Under the pieces are notes generated by a model. That model searched no databases and was not told the origin of the DNA. It saw only the letters and a program-made list of their open reading frames with translations. From Bolinopsis microptera (Eukaryota; Ctenophora; Tentaculata; Lobata; Bolinopsidae), in NCBI RefSeq assembly GCF_026151205.1, contig NC_087079.1, positions 4,793,230 to 4,857,229 on the forward strand: a stretch of DNA of 64,000 bases, in the 5' to 3' direction. Made by a program: the position numbers and the translations under genes. Below, in pieces: positions 1 to 63,813 of this stretch; the stretch's first letter is position 1; each line of letters begins with the position of its first letter.

Positions 1-326
1 AATTCTCTTAATCGATACAATACTGGAGTTCAGCTTTAAAGATAAATGATTAAGATGTGGTTCCCAACATAGCTGTTCGTCTATTATCACCCCAAGAAAC
101 TTTGTACATTGAACTTTTTCTAGCTTTTTGCCATCTATTGAAATCGTTAGAATCCTGTTAAAGGGCCGTGTTCTAGCACAGGTCTGTGTTGCTCTTGACA
201 AACCTGGCTGAAAATGCATAAAACAACTTTTCCCTGCATTTATATGTAACTTGTTAGACTCCATATAGTTACTGACTTGTTTCATTACATGATTAGCTTT
301 TTCATAAGCTTCCTGTGCTGAACGAC
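1..326 (-). pseudogene. LINE-A ORF2, segment after the RT YADD box (continues off left edge)
   Basis: The minus strand is open throughout and encodes the region just downstream of a reverse transcriptase active site: a helix-rich stretch, then INAGK, then the thumb-proximal motif KFLGVIIDE. It is the continuation of the ORF2 that stops at 9340 on the far side of the palindromic element. Counting one copy of the 6-bp duplication, the reading frame passes from the FADDTN box into this segment without a break. The rest of ORF2 and the 3' end lie beyond the window's left edge. Confidence 0.85.
321..326. repeat. 6-bp target site duplication, left copy
   Basis: AACGAC directly precedes the first base of the left arm and recurs directly after the last base of the right arm at 9334-9339. 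Removing one copy together with the element restores the LINE-A reading frame, which independently supports these exact boundaries. Confidence 0.9.
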
Positions 327-359
327 AGTAGTATATATACATACACCTGGCCGTCAATC

Positions 360-475
360 ACCTAGGTGTGAACTGCCCCCGGGGCCTCCCCGGGCTGAGC
401 TGCCCCCGGGAGCTGCCCCGGGGAGCTGAGGGACTGCCCCGGGGAGCTGGGGAACACCCTCCGTGAACCAGGGGC
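360..475. other. GC-rich terminal block of left arm
   Basis: Tandem runs of C4-G4 clusters (CCCCGGGG and variants) make this the most GC-rich stretch of an otherwise AT-rich element. The mirror copy lies at 9185-9300. A 95-codon ATG-initiated frame (354-641 minus; 9019-9306 plus) runs out through this block to the element end. Its Pro/Gly-rich C-terminus is set by the repeats, so I do not call it a gene. The block could fold strongly and may be a terminal recognition structure; that is inference. Confidence 0.6.
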
Positions 476-641
476 AATCGCAACAACAATCACCACAGCC
501 CGGGAACTCGCCCGGAACGGGCTCTCTGTGAGCCAGGTGTGAAATATCCTCGTAACGGGCTCCGGGGACCCTCGAGAGATCGTTCATTTGTTGTTGAGTT
601 CGATTGTTTAGTTTCACACCTCTCGGACTGGAACAAGACAT

Positions 642-1954
642 CTCAGATGTAAGTATATTTTTATTTTGTAGCGAATAATCTGTTCACGGGGCACACAAAA
701 CTGTCCCGGGCCCTTGTTCCTAAGATCCGCAAGTCCGGTGTGATCTTTCTTAGAGCACGAGGACTTTTATTGCAATAAATCCCTCGGTGTGAACCCGACC
801 CTCCCAGAGCAATAGGTCCCACAATTTGCAGCAAGTACTTGCTATATCAAAATCTACACAATCATATTTCAACTTACCCTCCCGATCTCCGCGTGACCAC
901 TCCCGGAATTATTATGTTTATCATCATTTCATATGTGTTATCTTTGAAACAGCAATCTACGACACGGCGAGATCTTGACCAATTTTTGTTTACACTTGAT
1001 GTCTAGTAATGCTACATAGTATTTCACAAGTCCGTTTTTTTAAAAATTTTCAACTTGAACTCAAGCTCCGGACACACAGAACTAGTAGCAACAATTGACG
1101 CTGCATTATTATTTTGAGGTGTGACAATTGTTTGAAGAGAGCTTTTCATAAATGTATCATGAGACCGTGATATGTTGAATATTGTCAAACCTGATCCCCC
1201 GTATTACGCCTGATTTACTTGAAATTCGTTTACCAATTTTGTAAATATGATTATTTGTTGTTATTTCGAAGAGAAGTGACTGAAAAGGTGCCAATTTTTC
1301 AATTCTGGGACTTGCAACAAAACGTTAGTTTGTCAGGTGAGTCAGTCATAATGTTAAACTGGAAGAGTAGCGCGGTTGAAACATGTATATAAAATTTTCA
1401 ATTGTTGAGTATTCTACGTATTCCAACAACATCTTGTTTTTCTTCATTTTGCTAATTCCGGAAGCATTAATTTTACGCTTCCATCATATTGTAAGATTTA
1501 AAATTGAGTAATTATAGGACTGTCAAATATTGCAACTAAATTTACAGGGGTCAATAACAGATAGTGATCCAATCACGTGACCGTTAATCCTTTCACGATA
1601 CAGTATTACTCCTTACGGACATAAACCATGTAGTGGAACTCACAGCTAGGAGCTCTACGTTTGAGACTCTGGCTAGGGGGAACTATGATATCCACCTTCA
1701 CGAGATGCATGCCACACCAGGTAATTACAGATTGAAGCAAATCCCAGTTACAGTTTTCAGTTTATTCAACCGAATCCGTTTTCCCTTTTGAATTATATGA
1801 TGATCATTTTGTAACAGTGCTGATTTTCATAAAACATCACGCAAAACATTCCAGGGTCTAGAACTGGTGACGATGCAACAAGACTGAACAATATCAAAAC
1901 AACATTCAAGCAAAATTGAGCGATGTTTGAGTAAATTGCTGAGCAGTCCCCAAG
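642..1954. other. Arm spacer without recognisable gene
   Basis: This AT-rich sequence lies between the GC-rich terminus and the zinc-finger promoter. I see no long open frame or known motif. It may hold the distal promoter of the zinc-finger gene. The mirror is 7706-9018. Confidence 0.5.
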
Positions 1955-1963
1955 TATATAAAG
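1955..1963 (+). promoter_or_regulatory. TATA box of left zinc-finger gene
   Basis: TATATAAAG lies about 33 bp upstream of the ATG at 1996. It fits a core promoter with a very short leader and favours that ATG over upstream non-ATG codons. Confidence 0.55.
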
Positions 1964-1995
1964 AGAACAAGGTTGGAAATTCATTTCAATCAGAG

Positions 1996-2637
1996 ATGTC
2001 GGTGTTTCGTCCTCTCTGCGATAAACAATTCGCAAACAAGCAAAGTCTGTCCTCACACAAAAGTCGGTATCATCGGAAGAAGGGAGAATCACACACAAGT
2101 TCTATCAACCACCCACCGTCAAAAGCTTATGTGACTGATGAAATAAGGGATAATCCTGAATATTCAGACGCTGATACAACAATATCTGAAGAAGATTATC
2201 AAGACAGTTCTAACTCTGAAGTAGCAAGTGTTGATGATGAGTCAAAAACAGAATCTGATCATATGACAAGTAGAGATAAGCTAGACTCTGACTCCCTGTG
2301 GCAACAAAAATGTAAGCGGAAAGAAGTACCAATCAAACAAATAAACAAAAAGGTGAAGATGTCGAAATTTATCAAAACTTTAGACGTTCTGTCACAAAGA
2401 AAGTTATGTAAGGAGGAAGACAAACGTTTTGACTTTTTATCCTCTTACATAATGAAAAATGAAGTGTTTGAGACATTGAAGCAGCGACTCAATAACTCTA
2501 GGCAAGACATCGCCACCGTTTTAAGTTTGGAAGAACGAGCTCTATTGGATGCAGTAATTACAACTACAAGTCTATCTGATGTCAACAAGCTAATGAACGA
2601 GAATAAAACAATCGTCAGTAAGATTCTTGAACTTTAA
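1996..2637 (+). CDS. C2H2 zinc-finger protein, left-arm copy (first zinc ligand lost)
   Basis: 213 codons. Residues 1-30 form one C2H2-like finger, with a C-x2-C start and an H-x4-H end (key run CDKQFANKQSLSSHKSRYH). An acidic Ser/Asp/Glu-rich linker follows (about residues 45-100), then a basic patch (KCKRKEVPIKQINKKVKM), then a helical C-terminus. The layout suggests a DNA-binding regulator with an acidic activation-type segment. In this copy the first zinc cysteine is Arg (CGT at 2008-2010, against TGT in the right-arm copy), so the finger is probably broken. The start is the ATG just after the TATA box; an upstream TTG in frame is not used. An AATAAA lies at 2816-2821. The family is not recognised. 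Because the arms are recent copies, conservation between them does not prove selection. Confidence 0.6.
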   Translation: MSVFRPLCDKQFANKQSLSSHKSRYHRKKGESHTSSINHPPSKAYVTDEIRDNPEYSDADTTISEEDYQDSSNSEVASVDDESKTESDHMTSRDKLDSDSLWQQKCKRKEVPIKQINKKVKMSKFIKTLDVLSQRKLCKEEDKRFDFLSSYIMKNEVFETLKQRLNNSRQDIATVLSLEERALLDAVITTTSLSDVNKLMNENKTIVSKILEL

Positions 2638-3709
2638 CCGTTGTTAACTATTGTTAAGTTTAATAACGAACATATAGTTGTTGAATATTTTGGATCAAAT
2701 TGACACTGTGTTGAATATTACAGTACACCTGTTACTGCTTGTTGTTGAAATTATAATTATATTTCTGGATTTAAAAGTATGATTGATATTGTACACAAGG
2801 TTGTACACAATTTTAAATAAACTGGTGGTGTTTTTGCGTTGATCTTTAATCCAGCACAAGAGCTGTAGTACCATCCGCAGGCCATCCACCTCTTTTGGGG
2901 TCAATCTCTTTTCATAGTTAGGTTTCGACTCTAGTAAACAAACCTATCCACTAATGATGATACAGATAAAATTACTAACCTGTTTAACAGCCCTATGCCT
3001 ACCCTACTGCCAGCTCAATACTGTATCTTTTTGGTGTAGGGTAATTGTATAGAACCATAGACAGTACCTTTTTGGTGTTGATCCAGCATGAGAGCTTAAG
3101 TGAACAATGAGGAGGTTCATGTAACCCTCTTCTTGTGATGACCACCGATGTAGTGTTGATGATCTCCTTTGTATGGTGATGATTCAAGAGGATCAGGTGT
3201 TCAATGTAATGAAATCTCTGTATACTACCCAGTACCCAACTGTTGGCGATCACTGCTTCTTGTGTGATCCTCATTCACACGACTGTTACAACTCCAAGTG
3301 ACATGCAACAACACATTTGTAGGATGCTCTCAAGACACATGCTACTGCACTGTTAAATTGCTGATAGGCGATTGTAAGGACGATTGTTCACGTAAATACG
3401 ACGTCTGGGATGACAGAAGAAGAGTGGACCCCTGTAGATCCATCTGGGGACCGTCATTGCTGTGGTGATTGTTGTTGTGATTATTTGTGAAGATGTGATC
3501 CTCCGATATGTAGTCCCTGCTCGCTCCAGCCTCTTGATACTGACTGTGATACCCCCCTGGTCAGATTGGCAAGCTTTTTATTCCTTTGGTATCATTAATT
3601 GCACGGTTTTTCATTGCTACCTTTGGAAATGCTTATGGCCTCCAGAAATTTAAACATACTCATGATTTTTATACAACAGTGGAATCATGAGTTTGGGTAT
3701 TTTACTCCA
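2638..3709. other. Inner left arm, no confident gene
   Basis: This block lies downstream of the zinc-finger gene. A 91-codon ATG frame runs on the minus strand (2999-3274; mirror 6386-6661). Next to it is a 69-codon frame sharing the core CWI-x4-K (LKLSCWINTKK versus LQLLCWIKDQRK), suggesting an old internal duplication of about 230 bp. Neither frame has a recognisable domain. GGTGATTGTTGTTGTGATTA near 3463 is an inverted relative of a motif near 484 in the same arm. Confidence 0.35.
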
Positions 3710-3967
3710 AAAGGATAGATTATCAAGGATTTTCATAGATTTTCAGGATTATCAAGGATATCAAGATTATCAAGGATTTTCATAGATTTTATAGATATAT
3801 CACAATCGAAAGAGTCATCAGAGATGACAGACTTTTCTGAGAAAGCAGTGTTTTGAAAATTTAGTTCGGACTTCCCTGACTTCCCAGGCTTCCACTGGCG
3901 GGCCCTGCGCGGAGAATGAGGGGGCGCAGAGGGGAAATCACGGGATGTCTGGGAAGTCTACTGTCAT

Positions 3968-4070
3968 GCCTATCATTATTATCAGTTGTCTATCATTATT
4001 ATCATTCACCTATAATTATTATCATTTGTCTATCATTATTTGAAATTTTTTATCATTATTACCACTTATT
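3968..4070. repeat. Short AT-rich tandem repeat at left edge of the unique centre
   Basis: Four imperfect copies of a roughly 20-bp unit built on CTATCATTATTATCA lie directly inside the left arm boundary. Confidence 0.7.
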
Positions 4071-4166
4071 TAATATTTAGTGAATAAACAATTAAAACGA
4101 ACTGTTACTATAAATTGTAATATGTGAAAATTACTTTAAACTATGTTATCCCTCTAGGGAAGGAAA

Positions 4167-4877
4167 CTAATAAATATCAATTACATTTAGAAAACGACCA
4201 TTACTGGCTATCCAACCAATAACAAAGTAACTATCACCAACTTTTAATTCAGGGATGATTTTGAACACTAAGTTGCTTTCAAAAATAACTGGTGTAAAAG
4301 TTTTATGTCCATCAGCAAAATATAATTCAAGTCTATAACCCCTTGAGCTCTCGTACTTCTTTAAAGTATACGATACAAGTTTCATTTGTGCATTAACTCT
4401 CTTCGAATGTTCAGCTTCTGATATAGCACTACACCCCAAACACTCAATTCTCTGTGCATTCATAGCTTCCAATGAAGAGTAGCACACTGGACAATTGTCT
4501 ATTTCAGCAGGTATCATGTTGATGAGTTGAGGGAAGTTATTCTTGAAGGAATACTGTACTTCAACCTCCTCGCCTATCTTGAAAGGTTCCATCGTTGCTT
4601 TCTTTAGAAGTAATGAATCCCAAACGTTGAACTTTAAATGTTTTGTTTTAAACGGTATATTTGTAGTAACTGTTAACCTCGTATACCCTCTTACTACTGG
4701 TCGAACTTCTGATATAAACCCGTAACAGTTGAAGAAAGCCATTTTGAAACGTAGTTGCCGATGTAAAACAAGAAATGAGTTCCAACATTGTTGTATCGAG
4801 CTTATAGTTATAGAGTTATACTTATTCTTTAGGTAAGTTACTGGTAAACACTTTAAGACCCTGTCCAGTGTCCGCAT
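4167..4877 (-). CDS. Putative OB-fold/zinc-ribbon single-strand DNA-binding protein
   Basis: 237 codons from the first ATG (4875-4877); an internal ATG at 4740-4742 (171 residues) is an equally plausible start. From the internal Met, the pattern is a first beta-rich module (FNCYGFISEVRPVVRGYTRL ... GEEVEVQY), then a four-cysteine ribbon (CPVC ... CLGC), then a second beta-rich module ending VGDSYFVIGWIASNG. OB-fold, zinc ribbon, OB-fold is the kind of order seen in replication protein A-like proteins, which hold single-stranded DNA. This is a structural impression; I recognise no family signature. The gene lies only in the unpaired centre, 135 bp from the next minus-strand gene, so the two may be co-expressed. 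Confidence 0.5.
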   Translation of the reverse strand: MRTLDRVLKCLPVTYLKNKYNSITISSIQQCWNSFLVLHRQLRFKMAFFNCYGFISEVRPVVRGYTRLTVTTNIPFKTKHLKFNVWDSLLLKKATMEPFKIGEEVEVQYSFKNNFPQLINMIPAEIDNCPVCYSSLEAMNAQRIECLGCSAISEAEHSKRVNAQMKLVSYTLKKYESSRGYRLELYFADGHKTFTPVIFESNLVFKIIPELKVGDSYFVIGWIASNGRFLNVIDIY

Positions 4878-5012
4878 ATATTTGTTGTCGTTAATTATGG
4901 TTGTGATATCCGACAAATACTTTTCATGATGTAGTGTATCCAAAACTACATTTTCAAATCAATAAAACTATTTAAAATTAGGTGATCGCATGAAAAATGT
5001 TAATATTTCAGT

Positions 5013-5570
5013 TTAAGGATTATCCTCTTTTATCTCGAGAACCTGCTTACAATCAAGTTCTGTACTAACATACACATTATTATTGGATGACTGAATAAGC
5101 TGTTTTAATATGCTAAATCCCTTAGTTTTAGATTCAAGCAATACTCCTGCTGTAAACGTTAAAATAAAAAAATAGAAATAATTTACATCTGACTCCAAAT
5201 TGTAAACAGGAGTGGCAGGAGGTTCAATGTCTATAGCAGTGATTATTGGAGAAATAAATGTGAAGTGTTCAAATTCAGTTTGTTGGATTTCTCCATTATA
5301 TCTCTGTAACAACATATCAACTTCATCAATTTTGAATCCTTTCCAGGAGAATAGAAAGCTATCCCTCTCTATAGTCGCGTTAAAGAGTGAAAACATCTTC
5401 CCATGATCGCGATTCAAATGTAAAAACAATGTTTTGTCTTCACGGTACAGATGTGCTGTTTTGTTGACCCCCTCAAAAAAGAAGTAGTTTTGTGTTTTGT
5501 TTGAATTAACTGGAAATTCAATGACGAAGGCCAGTGTAGAAACTACGCTAAATAAAAAATTAAAGTTCAT
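5013..5570 (-). CDS. Putative secreted or membrane protein, unidentified
   Basis: 185 codons from the ATG at 5568-5570, chosen because it opens a good signal peptide (MNFNFLFSVVSTLAFVIEF). Longer versions start at non-ATG or less suitable codons. N-linked glycosylation sequons follow (NKT twice, NAT). A mid-region FLFSWKGF faintly recalls the FxFTW core of WIF domains, too weak to name. A hydrophobic segment YFYFFILTFTAGVLL near residue 130 is a likely membrane anchor, with a short polar tail ending EIKEDNP. A signal peptide, sequons and anchor suggest a surface glycoprotein on a virus-like element. Its role is unknown. Confidence 0.5.
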   Translation of the reverse strand: MNFNFLFSVVSTLAFVIEFPVNSNKTQNYFFFEGVNKTAHLYREDKTLFLHLNRDHGKMFSLFNATIERDSFLFSWKGFKIDEVDMLLQRYNGEIQQTEFEHFTFISPIITAIDIEPPATPVYNLESDVNYFYFFILTFTAGVLLESKTKGFSILKQLIQSSNNNVYVSTELDCKQVLEIKEDNP

Positions 5571-7022
5571 GTTTGAATGGGGGAGGGGGTAAGACTTCAT
5601 TGCTTTTATACCCATATGGAACGATGTCATATTAAGTAAACATATCCCGAGCAAGTTTAATTGAATCCCTGGTTATTGTAAATGGGTTGAAAATGACAGT
5701 AGACTTCCCAGACATCCCGTGATTTCCCCTCTGCGCCCCCTCATTCTCCGCGCAGGGCCCGCCAGTGGAAGCCTGGGAAGTCAGGGAAGTCCGAACTAAA
5801 TTTTCAAAACACTGCTTTCTCAGAAAAGTCTGTCATCTCTGATGACTCTTTCGATTGTGATATATCTATAAAATCTATGAAAATCCTTGATAATCTTGAT
5901 ATCCTTGATAATCCTGAAAATCTATGAAAATCCTTGATAATCTATCCTTTTGGAGTAAAATACCCAAACTCATGATTCCACTGTTGTATAAAAATCATGA
6001 GTATGTTTAAATTTCTGGAGGCCATAAGCATTTCCAAAGGTAGCAATGAAAAACCGTGCAATTAATGATACCAAAGGAATAAAAAGCTTGCCAATCTGAT
6101 CAGGGGGGTATCACAGTCAGTATCAAGAGGCAGGAGCGAGCAGGGACTACATATCGGAGGATCACATCTTCACAAATAATCACAACAACAATCACCACAG
6201 CAATGACGGTCCCCAGATGGATCTACAGGGGTCCACTCTTCTTCTGTCATCCCAGACGTCGTATTTACGTGAACAATCGTCCTTACAATCGCCTATCAGC
6301 AATTTAACAGTGCAGTAGCATGTGTCTTGAGAGCATCCTACAAATGTGTTGTTGCATGTCACTTGGAGTTGTAACAGTCGTGTGAATGAGGATCACACAA
6401 GAAGCAGTGATCGCCAACAGTTGGGTACTGGGTAGTATACAGAGATTTCATTACATTGAACACCTGATCCTCTTGAATCATCACCATACAAAGGAGATCA
6501 TCAACACTACATCGGTGGTCATCACAAGAAGAGGGTTACATGAACCTCCTCATTGTTCACTTAAGCTCTCATGCTGGATCAACACCAAAAAGGTACTGTC
6601 TATGGTTCTATACAATTACCCTACACCAAAAAGATACAGTATTGAGCTGGCAGTAGGGTAGGCATAGGGCTGTTAAACAGGTTAGTAATTTTATCTGTAT
6701 CATCATTAGTGGATAGGTTTGTTTACTAGAGTCGAAACCTAACTATGAAAAGAGATTGACCCCAAAAGAGGTGGATGGCCTGCGGATGGTACTACAGCTC
6801 TTGTGCTGGATTAAAGATCAACGCAAAAACACCACCAGTTTATTTAAAATTGTGTACAACCTTGTGTACAATATCAATCATACTTTTAAATCCAGAAATA
6901 TAATTATAATTTCAACAACAAGCAGTAACAGGTGTACTGTAATATTCAACACAGTGTCAATTTGATCCAAAATATTTAACAACTATATGTTCGTTATTAA
7001 ACTTAACAATAGTTAACAACGG

Positions 7023-7664
7023 TTAAAGTTCAAGAATCTTACTGACGATTGTTTTATTCTCGTTCATTAGCTTGTTGACATCAGATAGACTTGTAGTTGT
7101 AATTACTGCATCCAATAGAGCTCGTTCTTCCAAACTTAAAACGGTGGCGATGTCTTGCCTAGAGTTATTGAGTCGCTGCTTCAATGTCTCAAACACTTCA
7201 TTTTTCATTATGTAAGAGGATAAAAAGTCAAAACGTTTGTCTTCCTCCTTACATAACTTTCTTTGTGACAGAACGTCTAAAGTTTTGATAAATTTCGACA
7301 TCTTCACCTTTTTGTTTATTTGTTTGATTGGTACTTCTTTCCGCTTACATTTTTGTTGCCACAGGGAGTCAGAGTCTAGCTTATCTCTACTTGTCATATG
7401 ATCAGATTCTGTTTTTGACTCATCATCAACACTTGCTACTTCAGAGTTAGAACTGTCTTGATAATCTTCTTCAGATATTGTTGTATCAGCGTCTGAATAT
7501 TCAGGATTATCCCTTATTTCATCAGTCACATAAGCTTTTGACGGTGGGTGGTTGATAGAACTTGTGTGTGATTCTCCCTTCTTCCGATGATACCGACTTT
7601 TGTGTGAGGACAGACTTTGCTTGTTTGCGAATTGTTTATCGCAGAGAGGACAAAACACCGACAT
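7023..7664 (-). CDS. C2H2 zinc-finger protein, right-arm copy (intact finger)
   Basis: 213 codons, identical to the left-arm copy except that both zinc cysteines are present (FCPLCDKQF), so this is the copy likely to fold. It has the same acidic middle, basic patch and helical C-terminus. The start is ATG at 7662-7664, about 33 bp from a TATA box. The opposite-strand frame at 7562-7867 is a shadow. The likely role is transcriptional or replicative regulation of the element; this is inference. Confidence 0.6.
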   Translation of the reverse strand: MSVFCPLCDKQFANKQSLSSHKSRYHRKKGESHTSSINHPPSKAYVTDEIRDNPEYSDADTTISEEDYQDSSNSEVASVDDESKTESDHMTSRDKLDSDSLWQQKCKRKEVPIKQINKKVKMSKFIKTLDVLSQRKLCKEEDKRFDFLSSYIMKNEVFETLKQRLNNSRQDIATVLSLEERALLDAVITTTSLSDVNKLMNENKTIVSKILEL

Positions 7665-7696
7665 CTCTGATTGAAATGAATTTCCAACCTTGTTCT

Positions 7697-7705
7697 CTTT
7701 ATATA
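7697..7705 (-). promoter_or_regulatory. TATA box of right zinc-finger gene
   Basis: Mirror of the box at 1955-1963 (TATATAAAG on the minus strand), at the same distance from the start codon. Confidence 0.55.
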
Positions 7706-9184
7706 CTTGGGGACTGCTCAGCAATTTACTCAAACATCGCTCAATTTTGCTTGAATGTTGTTTTGATATTGTTCAGTCTTGTTGCATCGTCACCAGTTCT
7801 AGACCCTGGAATGTTTTGCGTGATGTTTTATGAAAATCAGCACTGTTACAAAATGATCATCATATAATTCAAAAGGGAAAACGGATTCGGTTGAATAAAC
7901 TGAAAACTGTAACTGGGATTTGCTTCAATCTGTAATTACCTGGTGTGGCATGCATCTCGTGAAGGTGGATATCATAGTTCCCCCTAGCCAGAGTCTCAAA
8001 CGTAGAGCTCCTAGCTGTGAGTTCCACTACATGGTTTATGTCCGTAAGGAGTAATACTGTATCGTGAAAGGATTAACGGTCACGTGATTGGATCACTATC
8101 TGTTATTGACCCCTGTAAATTTAGTTGCAATATTTGACAGTCCTATAATTACTCAATTTTAAATCTTACAGTATGATGGAAGCGTAAAATTAATGCTTCC
8201 GGAATTAGCAAAATGAAGAAAAACAAGATGTTGTTGGAATACGTAGAATACTCAACAATTGAAAATTTTATATACATGTTTCAACCGCGCTACTCTTCCA
8301 GTTTAACATTATGACTGACTCACCTGACAAACTAACGTTTTGTTGCAAGTCCCAGAATTGAAAAATTGGCACCTTTTCAGTCACTTCTCTTCGAAATAAC
8401 AACAAATAATCATATTTACAAAATTGGTAAACGAATTTCAAGTAAATCAGGCGTAATACGGGGGATCAGGTTTGACAATATTCAACATATCACGGTCTCA
8501 TGATACATTTATGAAAAGCTCTCTTCAAACAATTGTCACACCTCAAAATAATAATGCAGCGTCAATTGTTGCTACTAGTTCTGTGTGTCCGGAGCTTGAG
8601 TTCAAGTTGAAAATTTAAAAAAAAACGGACTTGTGAAATACTATGTAGCATTACTAGACATCAAGTGTAAACAAAAATTGGTCAAGATCTCGCCGTGTCG
8701 TAGATTGCTGTTTCAAAGATAACACATATGAAATGATGATAAACATAATAATTCCGGGAGTGGTCACGCGGAGATCGGGAGGGTAAGTTGAAATATGATT
8801 GTGTAGATTTTGATATAGCAAGTACTTGCTGCAAATTGTGGGACCTATTGCTCTGGGAGGGTCGGGTTCACACCGAGGGATTTATTGCAATAAAAGTCCT
8901 CGTGCTCTAAGAAAGATCACACCGGACTTGCGGATCTTAGGAACAAGGGCCCGGGACAGTGTTGTGTGCCCCGTGAACAGAATATTCGCTACAAAATAAA
9001 AATATACTTACATCTGAGATGTCTTGTTCCAGTCCGAGAGGTGTGAAACTAAACAATCGAACTCAACAACAAATGAACGATCTCTCGAGGGTCCCCGGAG
9101 CCCGTTACGAGGATATTTCACACCTGGCTCACAGAGAGCCCGTTCCGGGCGAGTTCCCGGGCTGTGGTGATTGTTGTTGCGATT

Positions 9185-9300
9185 GCCCCTGGTTCACGGA
9201 GGGTGTTCCCCAGCTCCCCGGGGCAGTCCCTCAGCTCCCCGGGGCAGCTCCCGGGGGCAGCTCAGCCCGGGGAGGCCCCGGGGGCAGTTCACACCTAGGT
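9185..9300. other. GC-rich terminal block of right arm
   Basis: Mirror of 360-475, with the same clustered CCCCGGGG runs directly inside the element end. Confidence 0.6.
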
Positions 9301-9333
9301 GATTGACGGCCAGGTGTATGTATATATACTACT

Positions 9334-9339
9334 AACGAC
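9334..9339. repeat. 6-bp target site duplication, right copy
   Basis: AACGAC, matching 321-326 and directly abutting the right end of the palindromic element. Confidence 0.9.
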
Positions 9340-11815
9340 CTATCACAAAAATATTTGTATCATCAGCAAACAGGACGAATTCAGCCAAACTTGAGGAGCT
9401 CACAATATCATTTATATAAATCAGAAATAGTAGAGGTCCTAACACTGACCCCTGGGGTACACCATACTCAACTGAACACTTGTCCGATTTTTCAGTTTGA
9501 AAAGGAGTTACTTGGCTACGGTTTGTTAGATAGCTAGCAAGAGTTTTTAGTGCAATACCTCTTACTCCATAGTGTTCAAGTTTATGCAGGAGTTTATCGT
9601 GCTCAATTGTGTCAAATGCTTTACTTAGATCAATAAATATTCCAATTACATGATTTTTCTGTTCAATCATATTAAGTATTTTATTGACAGAATAGTTTAC
9701 GGCATGAGATGTTGGGTGTTGTTTTCTAAAACCAAATTGTCGATCATAAATCACGTTCATAGCACTGAGGTAATTATATAACCTATTATAAATTATTTTT
9801 TCAAGTATTTTGCCAAATATCGGTAATGTAGAAACAGGTCGATAGTTATCAAGGCATCGTGAGTCTCCTTTTTTATAAATTGGTGTAATAGAGCCCGTTT
9901 TAAGCTTGTTTGGAAAGACCCCATTGTCCAAGAACCAATTAAAGAATCTAGAGATATGACCAGACAGATAATTTACACTCTTTTTCAAGACTTTAACAGA
10001 GATATCACTTGCCTTCCCATTTTCAAGGCTACCAATAATTTTACTTATCTCTTCCTCGTCACAGGGGCTGAGAAAAAAAGAGTTCACTATTCTTTCTCTG
10101 CCCTTGAGGTATTGTTTAAACTTCGTTTTATTGAAATTGCCATCAGTTACCGTACGAGATGGTACAGAAGATTGAACTTTTGAATTAAGATTACGAGCAA
10201 TAGACGAGAAGTAGATGTTAAATCCGTTGGCAATCTCACGGCGTTCAGTTACAATTCTACCATCAATTAAGAATGATGCTTTTATATCTTTTTTAGATTT
10301 ACCCCTGAGTTCGTTAATCAATTCCCAGGTTTTTTAAATATTTCCTTTAGCAAGTTCAAATTTTTTCCCATAGTGGGCTTTTTTCGCAGATTTTATAGCT
10401 TTGTTTAAGATAGAACGATACTTCTTATACTTAAGATATAAAGTTTCCTCACCTAATGGGTTGATTTTGGTACACGAAGCCTTCCATCGCTTGTAGTGAA
10501 AGCCTTTAGTAAACACAGATTTAATTAACGCAGAAGTGATCCATGGATTCATCAATCTATTGCGTTTTGATTGAAAACCAGCAGTACAGTCCACTTTGAA
10601 ATTCAGTTCGATTTTTTCGTGGACAGTTTCGACAAATTTTTCAAAACCTTCCTCATCATACGAAAAGTTCGATTGGTAGATATCCTTTCCAATATCATTA
10701 AGGAAGCTTTCTATATTAGACTCACAGTAATCATACTTAGGTTTAAGTTTGGCATTATTTGAACTCTCTTTAATATTACACGATATGAAACAGAAGATTG
10801 GGTTATGATGGGAAATCTTGGATTCAAGAATTCCAGATCCTAAGACACGCTCAGTAGAGTTCACTAAAATATTATCAATTAAGCTTTCGTTGCAACCCGG
10901 CTTGGCATGGGTGGCAATCGATATCAAAGGGATTAAATTGTTACTGTAGATAGTTTGTTCAAATTCAGCTATGTTTCGTCCCTGGGCCAAAAGATCAAAA
11001 TTGAAGTCACCTGTCAAGGCTACATTATTAGACGGTAGGAATTTCATTAACACATCAAGCTCAGCAAGTGCATCTTGAATATCACCACTAGGGGGCCTGT
11101 AAACAACACCAGCAATCTGTGGAACCTCTGTGTTAGTGATCTCAACGAAAAGTGTTTCAAGATTGTCAGAGCATTTACACAACTTTTCGATTCGGCTGTA
11201 TTGGTACTGATTGTCAATATATATACCAAGGCCACTACCTTTCTTTTTCCCATCAGTTTTGGAGTTGTACTCACTGCTGTAACCATCAATTTTGTATAGA
11301 TCTTTATTTTCCTCATCAATGTTTGTTTCAGCTAGCGCAATAACTGCAAATTTCTCATCATATTGACTCATACCAGTAATAAAGCTGTCAAAGTTAGATG
11401 CGTTCCCATCAATGTTGTTAAACACAATAGATATAAACGGCTTGTTATGGCTAAGTATGTTTTTTGACAGCCGGTTGAAATTTGTTATGTTATAATACCT
11501 ACAGTCTTTTAGAATGTTTGAAATAGTCTCCATATCCTCGTCTCTTTCTACAGTGTTGGGATCATATTTGTCATAAATAATTGAGTTAAAAGGATTGTAC
11601 CTTTGGGATTTGAAGGCGTAACACTGACTGCAGTGCCACATTTGTTTAACATGATCAAATTTAAAACTCTGTTCAGAACATTTGGCATGATATATTGTAT
11701 CGCAACTCTCACATATTATGATTTTATGATGGCTTAGTACATTGCTATCACAACCTGGACATCTCTCTCTCTTGTAATATTGAAGTTTATTGAGGTCATA
11801 TCGGTAAGATATCAC
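9340..11815 (-). pseudogene. LINE-A ORF2: PHD finger, APE-type endonuclease and reverse transcriptase
   Basis: The N-terminus holds a PHD-like finger (CPGC, CESC, H-x2-C, CSQC; residues about 19-65). An APE-type endonuclease follows with AETN, VVYRPPS and GDFNFD; the usual SDH box reads SHH. The RT shows PIYKKGD, NYRPVS, FIDLSKAFDT, GVPQGSVLGP and FADD, spanning fingers and palm. One in-frame TAA (10334-10336) lies between endonuclease and RT; the frame is otherwise continuous. The palindromic element then splits the gene just after FADD. The start region overlaps the ORF1 end by 20 bp, suggesting coupled translation. The protein nicks target DNA and copies its RNA there. This copy is dead. 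Confidence 0.85.
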
Positions 11816-16998: not shown

Positions 16999-19598
16999 AA
17001 TAATGTTTAAGGGTACCTTTGAAACTGTCTACGTTGCGTAGTGATCGTATCTCCCAGGGAAGTGAGTTCCAAGCAGTTGGTGCGTAGTTGGTGAATCGAC
17101 GTTGATCAATCTTACTATTTGTAGTTTTAGGAGTCTTTAGTCTGTAACAATCTCCTTCTACTTTTGATCTTGTACTAGCTATTGTCAATGGGTTTTCAAT
17201 CACTACAAGATTCTGTATGTAGGCCGGTGCAATCCCATGCACAGCTTTATAAGTTAACAGGCAGACTTTAAAGAAAATCCTTTGGTCAAGAGGAAGGATA
17301 TGTGCTCTCTTGTAGTAGGGAAGTAGGTCTTCTGATCGGTCTTTGATATTGTAGATGAACCGTATGGCACCATTGAGGGTTGATCTTGGCTTGTTAAGTC
17401 GTGTCTTTGGTAGGTTCATGTAAAGAGAATTACAGTAGTCGAGCTTTGATATTACAAGCTGTGTTATCATCATGAGTTTCACTCCTTCATCCAGATAGCG
17501 CCCAATCGTCCTTAGATTCATCATTGTCCAGCTGCATTTCTGTTTGACACTATTAATTTGTCTTTCCATGGTAAGAGACTTATCAAACTTTACCCCAAGA
17601 CTCTTCCAGCTGTCACCTTTACATTCAGTTGGAGTGATAGTTGTGTTTCCGAACTGAATCGTCACCTCCATTTTGCAGTCTTAAAGAACTTTTGATTTGC
17701 CTAGGACAAGTAGTTCTGTCTTCGACTCATTGAGTTTCATAAAGTTTCCATCCATCCAATGCTTGATTTCCGAGAGACATCTATTTATCCGATCTTTGAC
17801 ATCTGCAAGTTCGCTTGGGAAGCTTGGATGAAAAGATATGTATAACTGAGAGTCATCCGCATATAGCTGGATGTCTAGTCCAAATTTGGCAGCAATATTC
17901 TGAAGTTCTTTAATGTAGAGTATAAACAAGATGGGCCCTAGTAGGGATCCCTGAGGGACTCCAAAGAGGAGTTCAAGAAGAGACGAGATAGTATCGCCAA
18001 TCTTTACACAGAAATATCTGCTCTCAAGGTATGATCTCATCCATTGAAGGGCTTTCCCAGTTACACCATAATGCTTGAAAAGTTTCTCAAGGAGGATTTC
18101 GTGATCAATAGTGTCGAAAGCTGCACTGAGATCCAGGAGTACCACAGCCACGATGTTACCTGCTTGAATCTCCTTGTTTATGTCGTCAGTCATCCTGACA
18201 AGAAGGGTCTCACAGCTGTGCTGTGGGCGGTATCCAGACTGGACAGGGCAGTGAAGGTTGTTTATGTCCAGATGGTCATTCAACTGGTTCAGTACAATTC
18301 TTTCCAGGAGCTTGGATATAGCAGAAAGGTTCGATACTGGTCTATAGTTACTTAAACTGTCAACATCAGCGTTCTCTTTCTTAAGGGTTGGCTTAATAAC
18401 CGCTTTCTTCATTTGAAAAGGAAATGATCCTGTCTCAGTAGACGTGTTTAGGATGTGCAGGAGTACAGGTGTTAGCTCATCCACACAGCTCTTCAGTAGG
18501 AATGAAGGAATGGGATCCAGACAGCAGAACTTGTTACTCATCATTTTAACCAGTTTTCTGAGGTCTTCAGCACTGATAGGGGAAAATGTGTGAAGAGTTG
18601 AAACATAATCAGGTTCACTTGAAAGAGCAAGTGTTTCCTCCGGGACATTTTTGGATGCATCCAATTCAATGTCTTTCCGTATTTTGTTAACTTTCTCAGC
18701 AAAGAAGTCTTTGAAATCCTCTGACAGTTTTACAGGGTCTTGATGTTTGGGGAGATCCTGTGTCTCGTTACCAAGAAGTCTGTTAAGCTTCTTGTAAAGG
18801 GCCTTTGAGTCTCCTGATGATGCTCGAAGCGACTCTTTGTTATAAGAACATCTCTTCACAAACTCTAAACTAACAAATCTATCTCTGAGATCTATGTAGT
18901 CTTTCCTGGTACCCTTTCCTTTGCGCCATGCACGTTCGGCTGCTCTCCTCTTTTGACGTAGCAAACTATGGTCTAAGTCAAGCCACGGCATGGGTTTCTT
19001 CCGAAATTTCTTCTTTATAAGTTATAACAGGACAGTGCTTATCCATGAGTTGAGTAAGGACAGAGTTATACAGTGAAGTCGCTTCTTCAGCAGTTAAAAT
19101 TGGATCAATAGTTGACAGGTTGGAATTCCTTAGATCATCCTTAAAAATTTCAATGTCTATGGATTTGAAATTTCTGTAGCTCAGAAATTTGCCATTATCA
19201 TTCTTACTAAGTCGAGTGTCAACATCGAAGAGTACTAGAAAATGGTCTGAGGAAGTTCTTGACTGAACAATGTTAAAATTGCTGATCTTGTTCTCAAGAG
19301 ACTGGGTAGAGATCACTAGGTCCAGGGTACCGCCCTGATTATGAGTTGGGACTATTGGAACATGTTGTCGGAGGTTGTACTGAGCTAGCAAGTCCAGAAA
19401 CTTCTTTGGATAGTGTTCATCGGGTCTTTCAACATGAAAATTGAAATCCCCAGTCAAGAGAGGGTTTCCTGGCTTTGCACACAGTATTTTAAGGTATTCT
19501 TCAAACTCCTTTAGGAAGTCACATTCTGTGTACCTTGCTTTCTTTGTGTAGGGGGGTCAGTAGATGTTTACTAGTCTCAGCAACTCTGATTCAGAAAA
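16999..19598 (-). pseudogene. LINE-C ORF2: endonuclease C-terminus and reverse transcriptase, frameshifted
   Basis: The endonuclease enters at VNIY-stop-PPYT (TGA replaces the expected Arg codon near 19560). It continues with LLTGDFNFHVE and GGTLDLVIS, and SSDHFLV supplies the catalytic SDH. A frameshift near 18985 leads to the RT (KPTLKKEN, NYRPVSNLSAISK, LLDLSAAFDTIDH, GVPQGSLLGPILF, YADD). A second break near 17675 leads to the C-terminal domain (LDYCNSLYMNLP, LLTYKAVHGIAP). The last genuine residues precede the pogo terminus at 16998. It is an old, inactive copy. Confidence 0.85.
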
Positions 19599-51476: not shown

Positions 51477-54400
51477 ATGATCGATTTAGTAACATACAGA
51501 TTTAGAGTTGGAGTGTTTAGTGGAAATTCTTTTGCAAAATCCATCAAACATCAGAACCGTAGACGTGGTACAGGTAGTATTTTTGATTATTTAGACAGCT
51601 GCATTGATTCTCGCTTATTATTTTATATTTTTTATGTTATATTCATATGTCACTTTTCGCTAATCACTATCACATATGTCGGGGTAAGTGGGTTGGCTTT
51701 TTCTAGGGTCACTTATGATTGCCGAGCCTTTGTACCAACATACCCAGTTCCTAACTTGTGCCGATGCTTTACAGTTTATTTCTTTTTATATTTAGCAAAT
51801 ATGTATTATCTGAGGAATAATTACAGTTTCGATGGTTTATATAGATTTTGCCAGATTTCAATCCATAAGAACTTAAATTGCATATTTACTGGTAGAACCG
51901 GCAATACACTCACGGGATGCATAATTTGGTTGTTTTTGATGAATGGTTTTTTGATAGTTTTAGTAAACCCTGGAATTGTAAACCCAGGGCCGTCTCCCAT
52001 AGGTGTTAGAGTTGGGAATGGTAATAAATTGAATGTTTACTTTCAGAATGTTCAAGGTCTCATCCCTTTTGGTGAACTGAACAATGCCCATCCAATGATT
52101 GATACCACTAAATGTCTTGAAGTGTCGACTTATCTTAATGAGGCTAAGATAGATATTGCAATACTTAACGAAACCTGGTTTAAGAGTTCTATTGCTGATA
52201 GTGAATTTCTGCACCCTGACAGATATAAGATATTTCGCTCTGATAGATCGAAGAAAACTCATCCACCAGATCCTTCTAATCCAACCCGGTTTAGGAGGAA
52301 TGGTGGAGGGGTCATGATTGCAGTGAGAGCAGACCTTGATCTAACTTCAAAGGAAGTTCATCTCAAGTATGGTGCAGAAATTCTTGCTGTGGAATTTAAG
52401 ACATCCACTGGAATTAAGTTTGTTGTATGCACATGTTATCGTGTTGGTACACTGGGCTCCGCAAATCATGAAAAAATTGTTGAGTCTTTGAAAACTCTTC
52501 TCAGAAGAAGAGGACTGAGTAAAGTCTTCATACTAGGAGATTTTAACCTGACCGGAGTTTCCTGGTCTACCCTGGCCAGCTCCTGTCCTATTGAGCAATC
52601 TTTTGTTAAATCTTTTGTTGATCTAGGCCTTCAACAATGTGTGTTAACACCTACCCACTGCAAAGGCAAAACACTTGACCTATTGCTCACAAACTCTGTG
52701 TCAAATATTAATGACCTAATGGTAGGTGAGAGAGATAGTGCTTGCAAGTCTGACCACTTCCCCATCAATTTTAAGATCAACGTTAAAGTTGGTAGGAAGA
52801 AGCCAGTCAGGCGTATGTGCTATAACTTTAAGACTGTGAACTGGGAGAGGCTAAACCATGAACTCCGACACACGAATTGGGATGCATTGCTCAATGGCAC
52901 AGAACCTGAAATTGGATGGAAAAAATTTAAGGACAAACTTTTTAATGTCACAGATAAATTTGTTAAAAAATGCTCTGTCAAGACTGATGGCCAAGATCCA
53001 TGGTTTGACTCGGAGTGTTATGATGCATGGCGTAAGAAAGTGAGATTACATAAAGAAAGGCATAAAAGTGATAGAGCTGAAATTGCATTCTCCCTTGCTA
53101 GGAAAAATTTCAAAAATGTGGTTGCTCAAAAAATGAGGGAAACATTAAATGAATCTGATGATAGTGCTTTAATAACAAAAAAATTTTGGTCCTATGTCAA
53201 ATCGAAGACAGCTAGTCAGCGGATCCCTGAGTTTGTAAGCCACAAAGGCACTGTCCGCAACTGCCCTGAAGACCAGGCCAACCTATTTAATGACTTTTTC
53301 TTCGAGCAGTTCTCTGAGGCATCAACTTATGACATAGATATAGATTACTCTAATGATTGGCGCTTTGATATTGAATTTGACCACAGAAGGGTTCGCAAAA
53401 TCCTTTCCAATATTAATGCTAATAAAGCTTATGGACCTGATGGTATCCATGGGAAACTTTTGAAAAACTGTGCGGTTGGGCTCGCATACCCTATATCAAT
53501 ACTTTTTCATTCATGCTACAACATTGGGACACTACCAAGGGAGTGGAAACTGGGGCACATTGTACCAATATTCAAGAAAGGGGATAAACATGAGGTTTCA
53601 AATTATAGGCCAATTTCTCTTACATGCTTAATCACAAAAGTTCTTGAACGCATAATAAGAGATGAGTTATTGGCACTTACTAATGGCATGATCAATGACA
53701 AACAGCATGGTTTCCGAGCTGAGAGATCTTGTGCAACTAATCTTGTAGGACTGTGCGACAGCCTAGCGCTCTCACTGAATGAAAATATGAGAACAGATGT
53801 AGTCTACTTTGATTTTGCCAAAGCATTTGACTCGGTTAACCATGATCTTATATTATTTAAGCTAAAGAGCAAATTTGGTATTGATGGGAGGCTACTGAAA
53901 TTCATCACTGATTATCTAAGAGACAGGCAACAACAGGTCTTGATAAGTGGCAAGTTTTCTTCTATGAGAAACGCCCAGTCTGGTGTACCTCAAGGGTCAA
54001 TTTTGGGACCATTGCTGTTCATTATGTTCATTGATGATATATCAGTGGGGATTTCACCAGGCACACAACTGTCACTGTATGCCGATGATACTAAAATTTG
54101 GCGTAAGATTGTTTCGGAGTCTGATATCCTGCGACTGCAGAAGGACATTGATTATCTCCATGACTGGTCACTTTCTAATAAAATGAGATTTCATCCCGAC
54201 AAATGTAAGGTCCTCACCGTCGCAGGAAGGATATCCGAAACAGTTTCCCTCCTTAGTGTCCTACCACTCTTTAACTTTGTATACTCCATGGGAAGAATCA
54301 CACTTGACTATGTTGATCATGAAAAGGATCTGGGTGTAATTGTGACATCAAATCTCGATTGGAAAGATCAGTGCTCCAAAGTCCTTTCTAAGGCAAACCA

Positions 54401-54989
54401 AAAATTAGGCATGGCGAGAAGAAATTGTTATTTTGTCCAAGACGTAAATCGTCGTAGAGTACTGTATCTCACTTTAGTGAGGAGCCTATTTGAGCATTGC
54501 TCGGTTATATGGAGACCAGTCACAAAATCCCAGATAAGCAAGCTGGAGGGCCTCCAAAAGCGTGCTATTAAGTGGATTCTTCACGAGGAGTATATGAGTT
54601 ATCCACCATCCACATACATTCAAAAATGCAGACAGCTGAAGATTATGCCGATTGAAGACCGCTTTGACTTCTTGGATCTCATCTTCTTCTTTAAAATTGT
54701 GAAGCAACATATACCTGTCACTTTACCCTCATATTTGCAACCATTTCAAGGCCACTCAAGGCTCAGAAATAGTCACATGGACTCTCTATGTTTTGTAAGC
54801 TCTATCTCACCTCGAGCAAGCTCCAACGCTTTTGCCAAGAATTTCTTCTATAGGACCCACACTAAGTGGAATCACATTCCTCTAGATATCCGTGAGATAG
54901 AGAGTATCACTGATTTTAAAAGTAAACTTTCCACATGTGGGGGAAAATTATCCCGGTGGATTCGGACTCTGAACTTGACTATTCAATAG
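51477..54989 (+). CDS. LINE-B ORF2: endonuclease and reverse transcriptase, apparently intact
   Basis: 1,170 codons from ATG 51477. The first 170 residues hold two hydrophobic stretches (LLFYIFYVIFICHFSLITIT and IIWLFLMNGFLIVLV), unusual for a LINE ORF2. The APE-type endonuclease starts near residue 186 (NVYFQNVQG), with NETW, GDFN (about 353) and SDHFPI (about 424). The RT has PIFKKGD, NYRPISLTC, FDFAKAFDS (about 778), GVPQGSILGP and YADD (about 867). The C-terminal domain includes LGVIVTSNLDW and a basic RKR-type region (RRNC, NRRRV). It nicks target DNA and reverse-transcribes the LINE RNA. With no stop or frameshift, it is the youngest LINE here. Confidence 0.93.
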   Translation: MIDLVTYRFRVGVFSGNSFAKSIKHQNRRRGTGSIFDYLDSCIDSRLLFYIFYVIFICHFSLITITYVGVSGLAFSRVTYDCRAFVPTYPVPNLCRCFTVYFFLYLANMYYLRNNYSFDGLYRFCQISIHKNLNCIFTGRTGNTLTGCIIWLFLMNGFLIVLVNPGIVNPGPSPIGVRVGNGNKLNVYFQNVQGLIPFGELNNAHPMIDTTKCLEVSTYLNEAKIDIAILNETWFKSSIADSEFLHPDRYKIFRSDRSKKTHPPDPSNPTRFRRNGGGVMIAVRADLDLTSKEVHLKYGAEILAVEFKTSTGIKFVVCTCYRVGTLGSANHEKIVESLKTLLRRRGLSKVFILGDFNLTGVSWSTLASSCPIEQSFVKSFVDLGLQQCVLTPTHCKGKTLDLLLTNSVSNINDLMVGERDSACKSDHFPINFKINVKVGRKKPVRRMCYNFKTVNWERLNHELRHTNWDALLNGTEPEIGWKKFKDKLFNVTDKFVKKCSVKTDGQDPWFDSECYDAWRKKVRLHKERHKSDRAEIAFSLARKNFKNVVAQKMRETLNESDDSALITKKFWSYVKSKTASQRIPEFVSHKGTVRNCPEDQANLFNDFFFEQFSEASTYDIDIDYSNDWRFDIEFDHRRVRKILSNINANKAYGPDGIHGKLLKNCAVGLAYPISILFHSCYNIGTLPREWKLGHIVPIFKKGDKHEVSNYRPISLTCLITKVLERIIRDELLALTNGMINDKQHGFRAERSCATNLVGLCDSLALSLNENMRTDVVYFDFAKAFDSVNHDLILFKLKSKFGIDGRLLKFITDYLRDRQQQVLISGKFSSMRNAQSGVPQGSILGPLLFIMFIDDISVGISPGTQLSLYADDTKIWRKIVSESDILRLQKDIDYLHDWSLSNKMRFHPDKCKVLTVAGRISETVSLLSVLPLFNFVYSMGRITLDYVDHEKDLGVIVTSNLDWKDQCSKVLSKANQKLGMARRNCYFVQDVNRRRVLYLTLVRSLFEHCSVIWRPVTKSQISKLEGLQKRAIKWILHEEYMSYPPSTYIQKCRQLKIMPIEDRFDFLDLIFFFKIVKQHIPVTLPSYLQPFQGHSRLRNSHMDSLCFVSSISPRASSNAFAKNFFYRTHTKWNHIPLDIREIESITDFKSKLSTCGGKLSRWIRTLNLTIQ

Positions 54990-61685: not shown

Positions 61686-61892
61686 CAAATAACGATTAAG
61701 ACAGTGGAAACTGAAAAATATTTGTATGAATTCTAGTTATTTTTCTACAAATAAACTAAGTACTATTGCCAATATTTCAATATATTGTAATATCGGCAAT
61801 TTGGTAGCTTGTAGACGAACAATTAACGGGCACTTAGTGCACGGTTGACGCACGGTAAGTAGTACAGTCTACATGCAGCATTCTGTTGACAC

Positions 61893-63289
61893 AAACACAC
61901 CCCTTACTGCTGCTATCCTACTTGTGAAACAAGCGCGTCACGCAGTACGCGTAGGCACATGGCTATGTGAACCTTACTGCAGCAGACACACCCCTTACTG
62001 CAGCAGACACACCCCTTACTGCAGCAGACACACCCCTTACTGCAGCAGACACACCCCTTACTGCTGCAGACACCCCTTACTGCAGCAGACACACCCCTTA
62101 CTGCAGCAGACACACCCCTTACTGCAGCAGACACACCCCTTACTGCAGCAGACACACCCCTTACTGCAGCAGACACACCCCTTACTGCAGCAGACACACC
62201 CCTTACTGCAGCAGACACACCCCTTACTGCAGCAGACACACCCCTTACTGCTGCAGACACACCCCTTACTGCAGCAGACACATCCCTTACTGCAGCAGAC
62301 ACACCCCTTACTGCAGCAGACACACCCCTTACTGCAGCAGACACACCCCTTACTGCAGCAGACACACCCCTTACTGCAGCAGACACACCCCTTACTGCAG
62401 CAGACACACCCCTTACTGCAGCAGACACACCCCTTACTGCAGCAGACACACCCCTTACTGCAGCAGACACACCCCTTACTGCAGCAGACACACCCCTTAC
62501 TGCAGCAGACACACCCCTTACTGCAGCAGACACACCCCTTACTGCAGCAGACACACCCCTTACTGCAGCAGACACCCCCCCTTACTGCAGCAGACACACC
62601 CCTTACTGCAGCAGACACACCCCTTACTGCAGCAGACACACCCCTTACTGCAGCAGACACACCCCTTACTGCAGCAGACACACCCCTTACTGCAGCAGAC
62701 ACACCCCTTACTGCAGCAGACACACCCCTTACTGCAGCAGACACACCCCTTACTGCAGCAGACACACCCCTTACTGCAGCAGACACACCCCTTACTGCAG
62801 CAGACACACCCCTTACTGCAGCAGACACACCCCTTACTGCAGCAGACACACCCCTTACTGCAGCAGACACACCCCTTACTGCAGCAGACACACCCCTTAC
62901 TGCTGCAGACACCCCCCTACTGCAGCAGACACACCCCTTACTGCAGCAGACACACCCCTTACTGCAGCAGACACACCCCTTACTGCAGCAGACACACCCC
63001 TTACTGCAGCAGACACACCCCTTACTGCAGCAGACACACCCCTTACTGCAGCAGACACACCCCTTACTGCAGCAGACACACCCCTTACTGCAGCAGACAC
63101 ACCCCTTACTGCTGCAGACACCCCCCTACTGCAGCAGACACACCCCTTACTGCAGCAGACACACCCCTTACTGCAGCAGACACACCCCTTACTACTGCAG
63201 ACACACCCCTTACTGCAGCAGACACACCCCTTACTGCAGCAGACACACCCCTTACTGCAGCAGACACACCCCTTACTACTGCAGACAGT
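61893..63289. repeat. 21-bp minisatellite
   Basis: About 63 copies of ACCCCTTACTGCAGCAGACAC, mostly perfect; one isolated founder-like copy lies at 61893-61913. CTGCTG and TACTACTG variants and a few indels shift the frame. As 21 is divisible by 3, all frames are long and open (HPLLQQT, TPYCSRH, TPLTAAD on plus; GVSAAVR, CVCCSKG on minus). CTGCAG is present in nearly every unit. Confidence 0.95.
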
Positions 63290-63813
63290 GACTTGCCTCC
63301 TCTTTCATTTCCTCTTTAAAAACAATATTACAAATCAGACTGAAGCCTGCTAAACGGTTTTAATTAATATTTAAATTGCCATTATACTATAGAGACCGGG
63401 TTCAACCATTTTTAACATTTTAAGTAATGTTACAGTTTTCCAAATATCAGTCATGCAAGTTTATATTTCATTCAAATTAAAGATTTATATGAATTCATTA
63501 TTACAACTTTTAAAGGAAAATGCCCAATTTTTTAATTTGGATTTTTTGGGGACAGGCTGCAAAGTTCCGAGCAATGTAAAGGAAATTGAATGTACAGTAA
63601 TTATATAAATTGTGAGATATTTGGAATCCTACGCACCTAATAAAAATAAAAAGGTAGTACCCTGATAATAACGAAGTGCACACTGTCATGTCGACTATTC
63701 GAAATATGCGGAGGTATCTTAAAAATCCGCTAAAGCTTAGTAATTATGCAGGTGAAGACAAATCACATCGCTGTCTACGCATTATGACTTAGAACATAAG
63801 TTAACTCATATAG
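63290..63813. other. Intergenic stretch
   Basis: AT-rich. No gene or repeat seen. Confidence 0.45.

Follow-up and report, generated by a model that had tools for sequence, protein, structure and literature searches.

A near-perfect palindrome with Polinton-like ends in Bolinopsis microptera, probably one of a class of helper-dependent satellites

Vertebrate Mavericks (Polintons) end in (AGT)2//(ACT)2, are flanked by 6-bp target-site duplications and have, when intact, inverted repeats of 46–1,447 bp; the repeats in their end motif are thought to permit jumping-back (PMC8097293). Foldback elements such as FB, Galileo and Tetris lack a transposase and consist in large part of long inverted repeats, of up to 1.2 kb in Galileo and 1.7 kb in Tetris (PMC2775673, PMC4079207). 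Those described are assigned to cut-and-paste superfamilies, and their structure was proposed to evolve repeatedly, by transposase loss and repeat lengthening (PMC4079207). Here we describe a 9,007-bp palindrome at positions 327–9333 of a 64,000-nucleotide stretch of the ctenophore Bolinopsis microptera (the window, C8:4793230–4857229, on contig NC_087079.1), which has a foldback build and Polinton ends and is not a Polinton by gene content.

The window element resembles Polintons in its end motif, its 6-bp duplication, a 518-bp terminus and two genes held in common with Polintons of this genome. It differs from them in that no polymerase, integrase, ATPase or capsid gene was found in it, in size (9 kb versus 13–25 kb), and in inverted repeats that reach 3.4–3.9 kb in six measured palindromes, well beyond the range given above for vertebrate Mavericks. 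Compared with those of the foldback elements above, its arms are longer and carry a conserved gene. Miniature inverted-repeat transposable elements (MITEs) and other non-autonomous derivatives rely on the enzymes of a helper and retain its ends; the window element differs from these in its length of 9 kb, its coding content and its palindromic build. Self-complementary or defective genomes of linear-DNA viruses, transpovirons and virophages are similar in the proposed helper dependence and panhandle pairing, but neither virion nor free DNA was seen here.

We consider it likely that the element is a non-autonomous foldback relative of Polintons, belonging to a class of palindromic, helper-dependent satellites. 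Its movement as a unit, a terminus in common with an element carrying an integrase fragment, and arms that are alike within copies that diverge from one another are observed directly. Foldback architecture has so far been described for cut-and-paste transposons; the class would be the Polinton version of foldback evolution, with a conserved gene added. The parts are of known kinds, and what would surprise a specialist is their combination, the C2H2 zinc-finger gene and the transfer of an insertion from arm to arm. Among open-access titles, subscription papers being mostly beyond the scope of the search, none on a palindromic or foldback Polinton was found.

Structure, copies and insertion of the window element

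Base-by-base alignment of the two 3,641-bp arms gave 9 mismatches and no indel, the mismatches being at window positions 678, 699, 1042, 1043, 1489, 2008, 2683, 3528 and 3560 and their mirror positions. The arms enclose a spacer of 1,725 bp and represent 80.8% of the element. The termini are AGTAGTATATATAC...GTATATATACTACT, both arms terminating in AGTAGTATATATAC, and an exact 6-bp direct repeat flanks the whole. The original prediction, made from the letters of the window, had given these arms, this spacer and a 6-bp duplication, with about nine mismatches and inverted repeats exceeding 80% of the element, and it was confirmed exactly. Chance origin of a near-perfect inverted repeat of 3.6 kb is excluded without any statistic. 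The features are as follows.

321..326, no strand: left target-site duplication AACGAC (direct repeat)
327..3967, plus: left arm, giant terminal inverted repeat (arm alignment)
327..844, plus: terminal 518 bp, 95.4% identical to L018 8405–8926, the end of a broken Polinton
1996..2637, plus: C2H2 zinc-finger open reading frame (ORF), left-arm copy, 213 aa, with a zinc-ligand Cys changed to Arg (window 2008)
3968..5692, plus: single-copy spacer, its first ~82 bp mirrored in four other copies
4167..4739, minus: 190-aa protein, predicted OB (oligonucleotide-binding) fold, conserved Cys, likely binding single-stranded DNA; relatives in Polintons
5013..5654, minus: 213-aa spacer ORF, 24 of 30 matches within 20 kb of an integrase match
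5693..9333, minus: right arm (arm alignment)
7023..7664, minus: C2H2 ORF, right-arm copy, zinc ligand intact at this site
8816..9333, minus: right terminal 518 bp, mirror of 327–844
9334..9339, no strand: right target-site duplication AACGAC (direct repeat)
9340..10321, minus: interrupted reverse-transcriptase ORF of a long interspersed nuclear element (LINE), the target, continued on the far side at 1–320

The flanks of the window element are LINE sequence, the minus-strand frame 9332–10321 matching RVT_1 (Pfam, E=4.6e-31). When they were joined and one AACGAC was removed, a LINE reverse-transcriptase frame of 306 aa ran uninterrupted across the site, and the element was therefore inserted as one unit.

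Copies were sought in the 264.65-Mb genome (232 contigs). The terminal 374 bp of the element had 35 matches, and four more full palindromes were found on other chromosomes, each with its own perfect 6-bp duplication:

C9 (L009): arms of ~3,720 bp, duplication CATCTC
C3 (L010): arms of ~3,721 bp, duplication CATACC
C2 (L011): arms of ~3,906 bp, duplication CTCAAT
C1 (L015/L016): 17.7 kb, duplication ACGTGA

Among the best candidates, which were those scored, the spacer was essentially complete in these four and the window element only. One relative on C7 (L019) had one arm matched, with interruptions, and no second arm within the stretch read. On C5, two 7.1-kb derivatives with window-family ends, L012 and L013, lie 79 kb apart and are 98.9% alike; they have their left flank in common, so that one of them probably arose by segmental duplication. 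Thus a search for further copies with the same termini, proposed at the outset, did find them, and mobilisation as a unit is borne out by five copies with separate duplications together with the restored LINE frame. An assembly artefact, a false mirror image, would hardly produce nine arm differences, a 6-bp duplication, a restored target frame and copies on other chromosomes, and we give it almost no credence.

In C9, C3, C2 and C1, ~82 bp from the start of the spacer are present on both sides; at the right junction of the window element they are absent. A small deletion has therefore probably removed ~80 bp from the inner end of its right arm, the ancestral arm having measured ~3.7 kb.

A frame of 164–306 aa crosses the insertion site in 4 of 8 joined sites: those of the window and L012 have RVT_1 matches, and the remaining two resemble reverse transcriptase on visual inspection, with no Pfam match. 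Among 20 evenly spaced control stretches, with flank lengths somewhat unequal to those of the insertion sites, 4 had a frame of at least 150 aa over the midpoint (Fisher p=0.17). The idea of a target preference was thus dropped.

Polinton affinity of the ends and of the spacer genes

Both ends were read in ten palindromes, drawn from the window family and from the wider class described below; in every one of them the 6-bp duplication is perfect and the ends are of AGTAG type. The ends are AGTAGT...ACTACT in the window family and in families 2 and 5, and AGTAGA...TCTACT in L058. Outside this count are L013, whose right end is not intact; L057, cut before its ends; L053–L055, three of the nine family-2 end windows, without a AGTAGTGT end; and L052 and L056, singles with one end. 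Also outside it is the inner palindrome of L014 (1029–4831), a 3.8-kb, nearly fully self-complementary stretch (97.6%) inside an apparent Polinton remnant, without AGTAG end or exact duplication.

Positions 1–518 of the arm share 95.4% identity with the end of L018, a locus in which a 151-aa frame is integrase-like (rve, E=8.6e-6, under the Pfam cut-off) and an ATPase is weakly matched. Next to it, in L017, a frame of 864 aa matches a family of phage DNA polymerases in PHROGs (E=2e-6) and nothing in Pfam. One L017 frame, taken by eye for a capsid protein, likewise had no Pfam match, and that assignment was rejected. A 118-aa frame of L018 is also present in L020, where a ~3.2-kb unit occurs twice in tandem (2365–7246).

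Within the window element, no hallmark gene had been recognised originally. As far as tested this stands: a Pfam search with five of its ORFs found no polymerase, integrase, ATPase, protease or capsid. For the last three Pfam is weak here, and a strongly diverged small gene of these kinds could have escaped it. The longest frame in 327–9333, of 263 aa, is too short, although spliced genes are possible. Of 32 integrase matches in the genome none lies within the element; nine have an open frame of 356–363 aa without a stop inside the match, and these loci are possible helpers.

The absence of hallmarks has to be qualified, in that two spacer genes have relatives accompanying Polinton integrases. 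Of 30 rows of the 213-aa spacer protein, 24 have an integrase match within 20 kb, at ~1.5–2 kb in 19 cases; for the OB-fold protein the figure is 12 of 21 rows. For both genes, the five window-family palindromes are among the rows lacking a nearby integrase match. The AlphaFold model of the 190-aa protein (mean pLDDT 81, pTM 0.48) had five PDB matches at E<0.001, namely the telomerase-TPP1-POT1 complex, three HIN-domain or related DNA-binding entries and baculovirus LEF-3, with low TM-scores (0.25–0.34). Its cysteines are conserved among relatives. The model suggests an OB-fold protein that likely binds single-stranded DNA. The 213-aa spacer protein is possibly a small membrane glycoprotein: by eye, it begins with hydrophobic residues, contains sites resembling those for N-glycosylation and has another hydrophobic segment close to the C-terminus.

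The end motif, the duplication size, the terminus in common with an integrase-fragment element and the spacer gene content all favour the Polinton-like integration first proposed from the termini. The duplication of Mutator elements is 9 bp long. Foldback members of cut-and-paste superfamilies such as Mutator and P do have long inverted repeats, which makes them an obvious alternative parentage (PMC4079207, PMC2775673). However, Galileo duplications are of 7 bp (PMC2775673), against 6 bp in ten palindromes, and neither the Maverick end motif, nor the 518-bp Polinton terminus, nor two Polinton-type genes would be expected. We therefore regard this origin as very improbable.

The C2H2 gene and a wider class of palindromes

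The C2H2 protein of the arms had 125 matches in the genome, of which 91 rows were kept. Among these, 37 opposite-strand pairs lie within 12 kb, where random placement expects 0.37 neighbours; 32 are divergent and 5, those of the window family, convergent. Bit scores are within 3.5 of each other in 28 of the 37 pairs and further apart in 9. In six arm pairs the C2H2 coding sequence (612–666 bases) has 1, 0, 4, 0, 0 and 0 differences. Further palindromes were read as follows.

C4 (L027): 6,193 bp, duplication GTTGCA
C2:16850743: duplication CGTAGG (ends and C2H2 matches read only)
C5:1787045: duplication CTGACC (ends and C2H2 matches read only)
C3 (L058): 7,697 bp by our reading, arms 99.7% identical, duplication TCATCA
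C13 (L059/L060): 11,446 bp, arms 98.2% identical, duplication CATCAG

In C2:16850743 and C5:1787045 the C2H2 genes of the two halves are equal-scoring or identical. By our own grouping, with C21 (L057, ends not reached) counted in, there are five families. The C13 palindrome is nested, having an OB-fold gene on one side and an integrase match on the other, and its C2H2 gene is single and lies in the spacer. Since C2H2 is in both arms in four families and in the spacer in one, arm boundaries move. At C11:19577466–19587862, an inverted C2H2 pair has a match to the 213-aa spacer protein ~8 kb off and no integrase match within 20 kb; it is possibly another palindrome carrying that gene.

Nei-Gojobori ratios of nonsynonymous to synonymous divergence (dN/dS), computed on 11 of the 24 coding sequences in hand, are 0.32–0.49 in all 44 between-family pairs of four families, which fits purifying selection; within families they range from 0.15 to 1.58, on small counts. 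An integrase match was found within 20 kb for only one of the 91 rows, that of the nested C13 palindrome, although highly diverged integrases would have escaped the query. Selective constraint on C2H2 therefore appears to operate within the palindromic elements themselves. Of the two copies in the window element, that of the left arm has Arg in place of a zinc-ligand Cys (at 2008); the ligand is retained in the right arm and in all four other palindromes of the family.

These data bear on whether the element is a dead-end deletion product of a Polinton, with one end duplicated once, few copies and no life of its own. The Polinton-type spacer genes and the 7.1-kb derivatives with the same ends would suit such an origin. 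Five palindrome families with the same signature C2H2 gene, the near absence of that gene beside integrases and the between-family dN/dS would not, and we judge it unlikely.

In the reading that we prefer, the C2H2 protein probably binds DNA and serves the satellite, in replication, packaging or expression, the choice among these being a guess. Its Pfam C2H2 matches in the window ORFs are under the curated cut-off. The predicted structure has helices of confidence >80 at about residues 151–213 and falls below 50 at residues 25–116; compared with PDB it had no match at E<0.001, and no function follows from it. Nine relatives in other public contigs are 46–85% identical; one of them, P0003, looks identical throughout to the protein of L040 in this genome, so that some may derive from the same species. 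Among the loci read, no integrase-bearing element had the C2H2, 213-aa spacer and OB-fold genes together. A 450-aa zinc-finger/coiled-coil protein of L026 was considered as C2H2 parent and rejected, the similarity being weak (E=0.03).

Copying between the arms

Arms were compared over two segments of the window arm, of 1,276 and 1,802 bp, with both arms of C1 in the first only, and with the C7 remnant, ~5% away, left out of the ranges. Divergence between the arms of one element is 0–0.31%, and between elements 0.33–2.46%, except for C9 and C3, near twins 0–0.28% apart. In trees, the two arms pair with each other for the window element, C2 and C1 (first segment only), and those of C9 and C3 form one cluster. 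Not one ungapped site separates all left from all right arms across elements. The arm/spacer junction being common to the copies, the palindrome predates their split, and the arms were therefore equalised after it. Very recent formation, one of two origins offered initially for the near-identity, finds no support, as the five copies with this junction differ by up to ~2.5%.

The strongest marker of arm-to-arm copying is in the C1 copy. Both of its arms have a Penelope-like insertion at the same base within the C2H2 gene, with the same start and flanked by an identical 9-bp repeat, AGGGATAAT. Aligned over 2,163 columns, the two insertions show 4 mismatches and 4 gap openings (31 gap columns); other window-family copies have no such insertion. 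The inserted element is a genome-wide repeat (at least 43 matches, 40 of 94 candidates scored) with a GIY-YIG match under the Pfam cut-off (E=0.0035). Two independent insertions at the same site are not credible, and so one C1 arm was copied onto the other. In the left arm of C1 alone there is, in addition, an inserted LINE of ~3.2 kb (RVT_1, E=5.5e-27).

Continuing conversion was the other origin initially offered. Recurrent copying between arms is upheld by these results; that it takes place within the chromosome, as in sex-chromosome palindromes and with no role for replication or transposition, is less likely. Conversion in place would account for arms 99.7–99.9% identical in four window-family copies, could have spread the Penelope-like insertion, and would explain the slight excess of differences between C9 and C3 over those between their own arms. 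Yet it did not transfer the C1 LINE insertion, the excess amounts to one or two substitutions, and among the nine wider-class pairs more than 3.5 bits apart some have one arm broken. Because an intact arm is paired with a broken one in some relatives (for example C4:8124826/C4:8128955 and C9:6708890/C9:6712563), equalisation is more likely tied to replication or transposition, and we find conversion in place rather unlikely.

The replicative scheme is drawn from protein-primed linear replicons and the Maverick end motif. Polintons would supply integrase and protein-primed polymerase in trans, and the linear satellite DNA would replicate by strand displacement. The displaced strand would fold back, its two arms pairing as a panhandle, and repair or copying inside the panhandle duplex would re-equalise the arms at each cycle; after integration they would diverge slowly. 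Panhandle replication predicts arms that are equal at integration and insertions transferred between them, and the sequences fit both. In its fullest form, that of self-sustaining, self-complementary satellites of Polinton viruses, with a panhandle, Polinton enzymes, copying of arms at each cycle, shifting boundaries and a C2H2 gene of their own, the proposal is tentative and, in our view, somewhat doubtful. If our main reading is right, Polintons possess helper-dependent satellites with a conserved gene, divergence between arms can date each insertion, much as for long terminal repeats, and Polinton replication in animals, to our knowledge never directly observed, could be tested through the satellites.

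Several points weigh against a Polinton satellite equalised by replication. No act of a helper was seen here. The L017/L018 Polinton is broken, its integrase and polymerase regions being in several frames with a LINE inserted; its left end was not found, and that its parts are one element rests on adjacency. Long repeats occur elsewhere, as polinton-like viruses of algae have inverted repeats of hundreds to thousands of bp (PMC12220804). In Galileo, two copies have arms >99% alike within and ~7% apart between copies, and two others are chimeric (PMC2775673); the pattern being alike, equal arms are no proof of protein-primed replication. Finally, C9 and C3 differ by 3–5 substitutions in 1,802 bp, against 1 and 3 between their own arms, and by 0–1 in the first segment, against 0 and 1, so that some conversion in place may have occurred.

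Elsewhere in the window, long frames at 17681–18991 and 51477–54989 (436 and 1,170 aa) resemble LINE reverse transcriptases by eye, and a long tandem repeat at 61873–63319 has a strong GC skew and several open frames (CSRHTPY/LTAADTP repeats).

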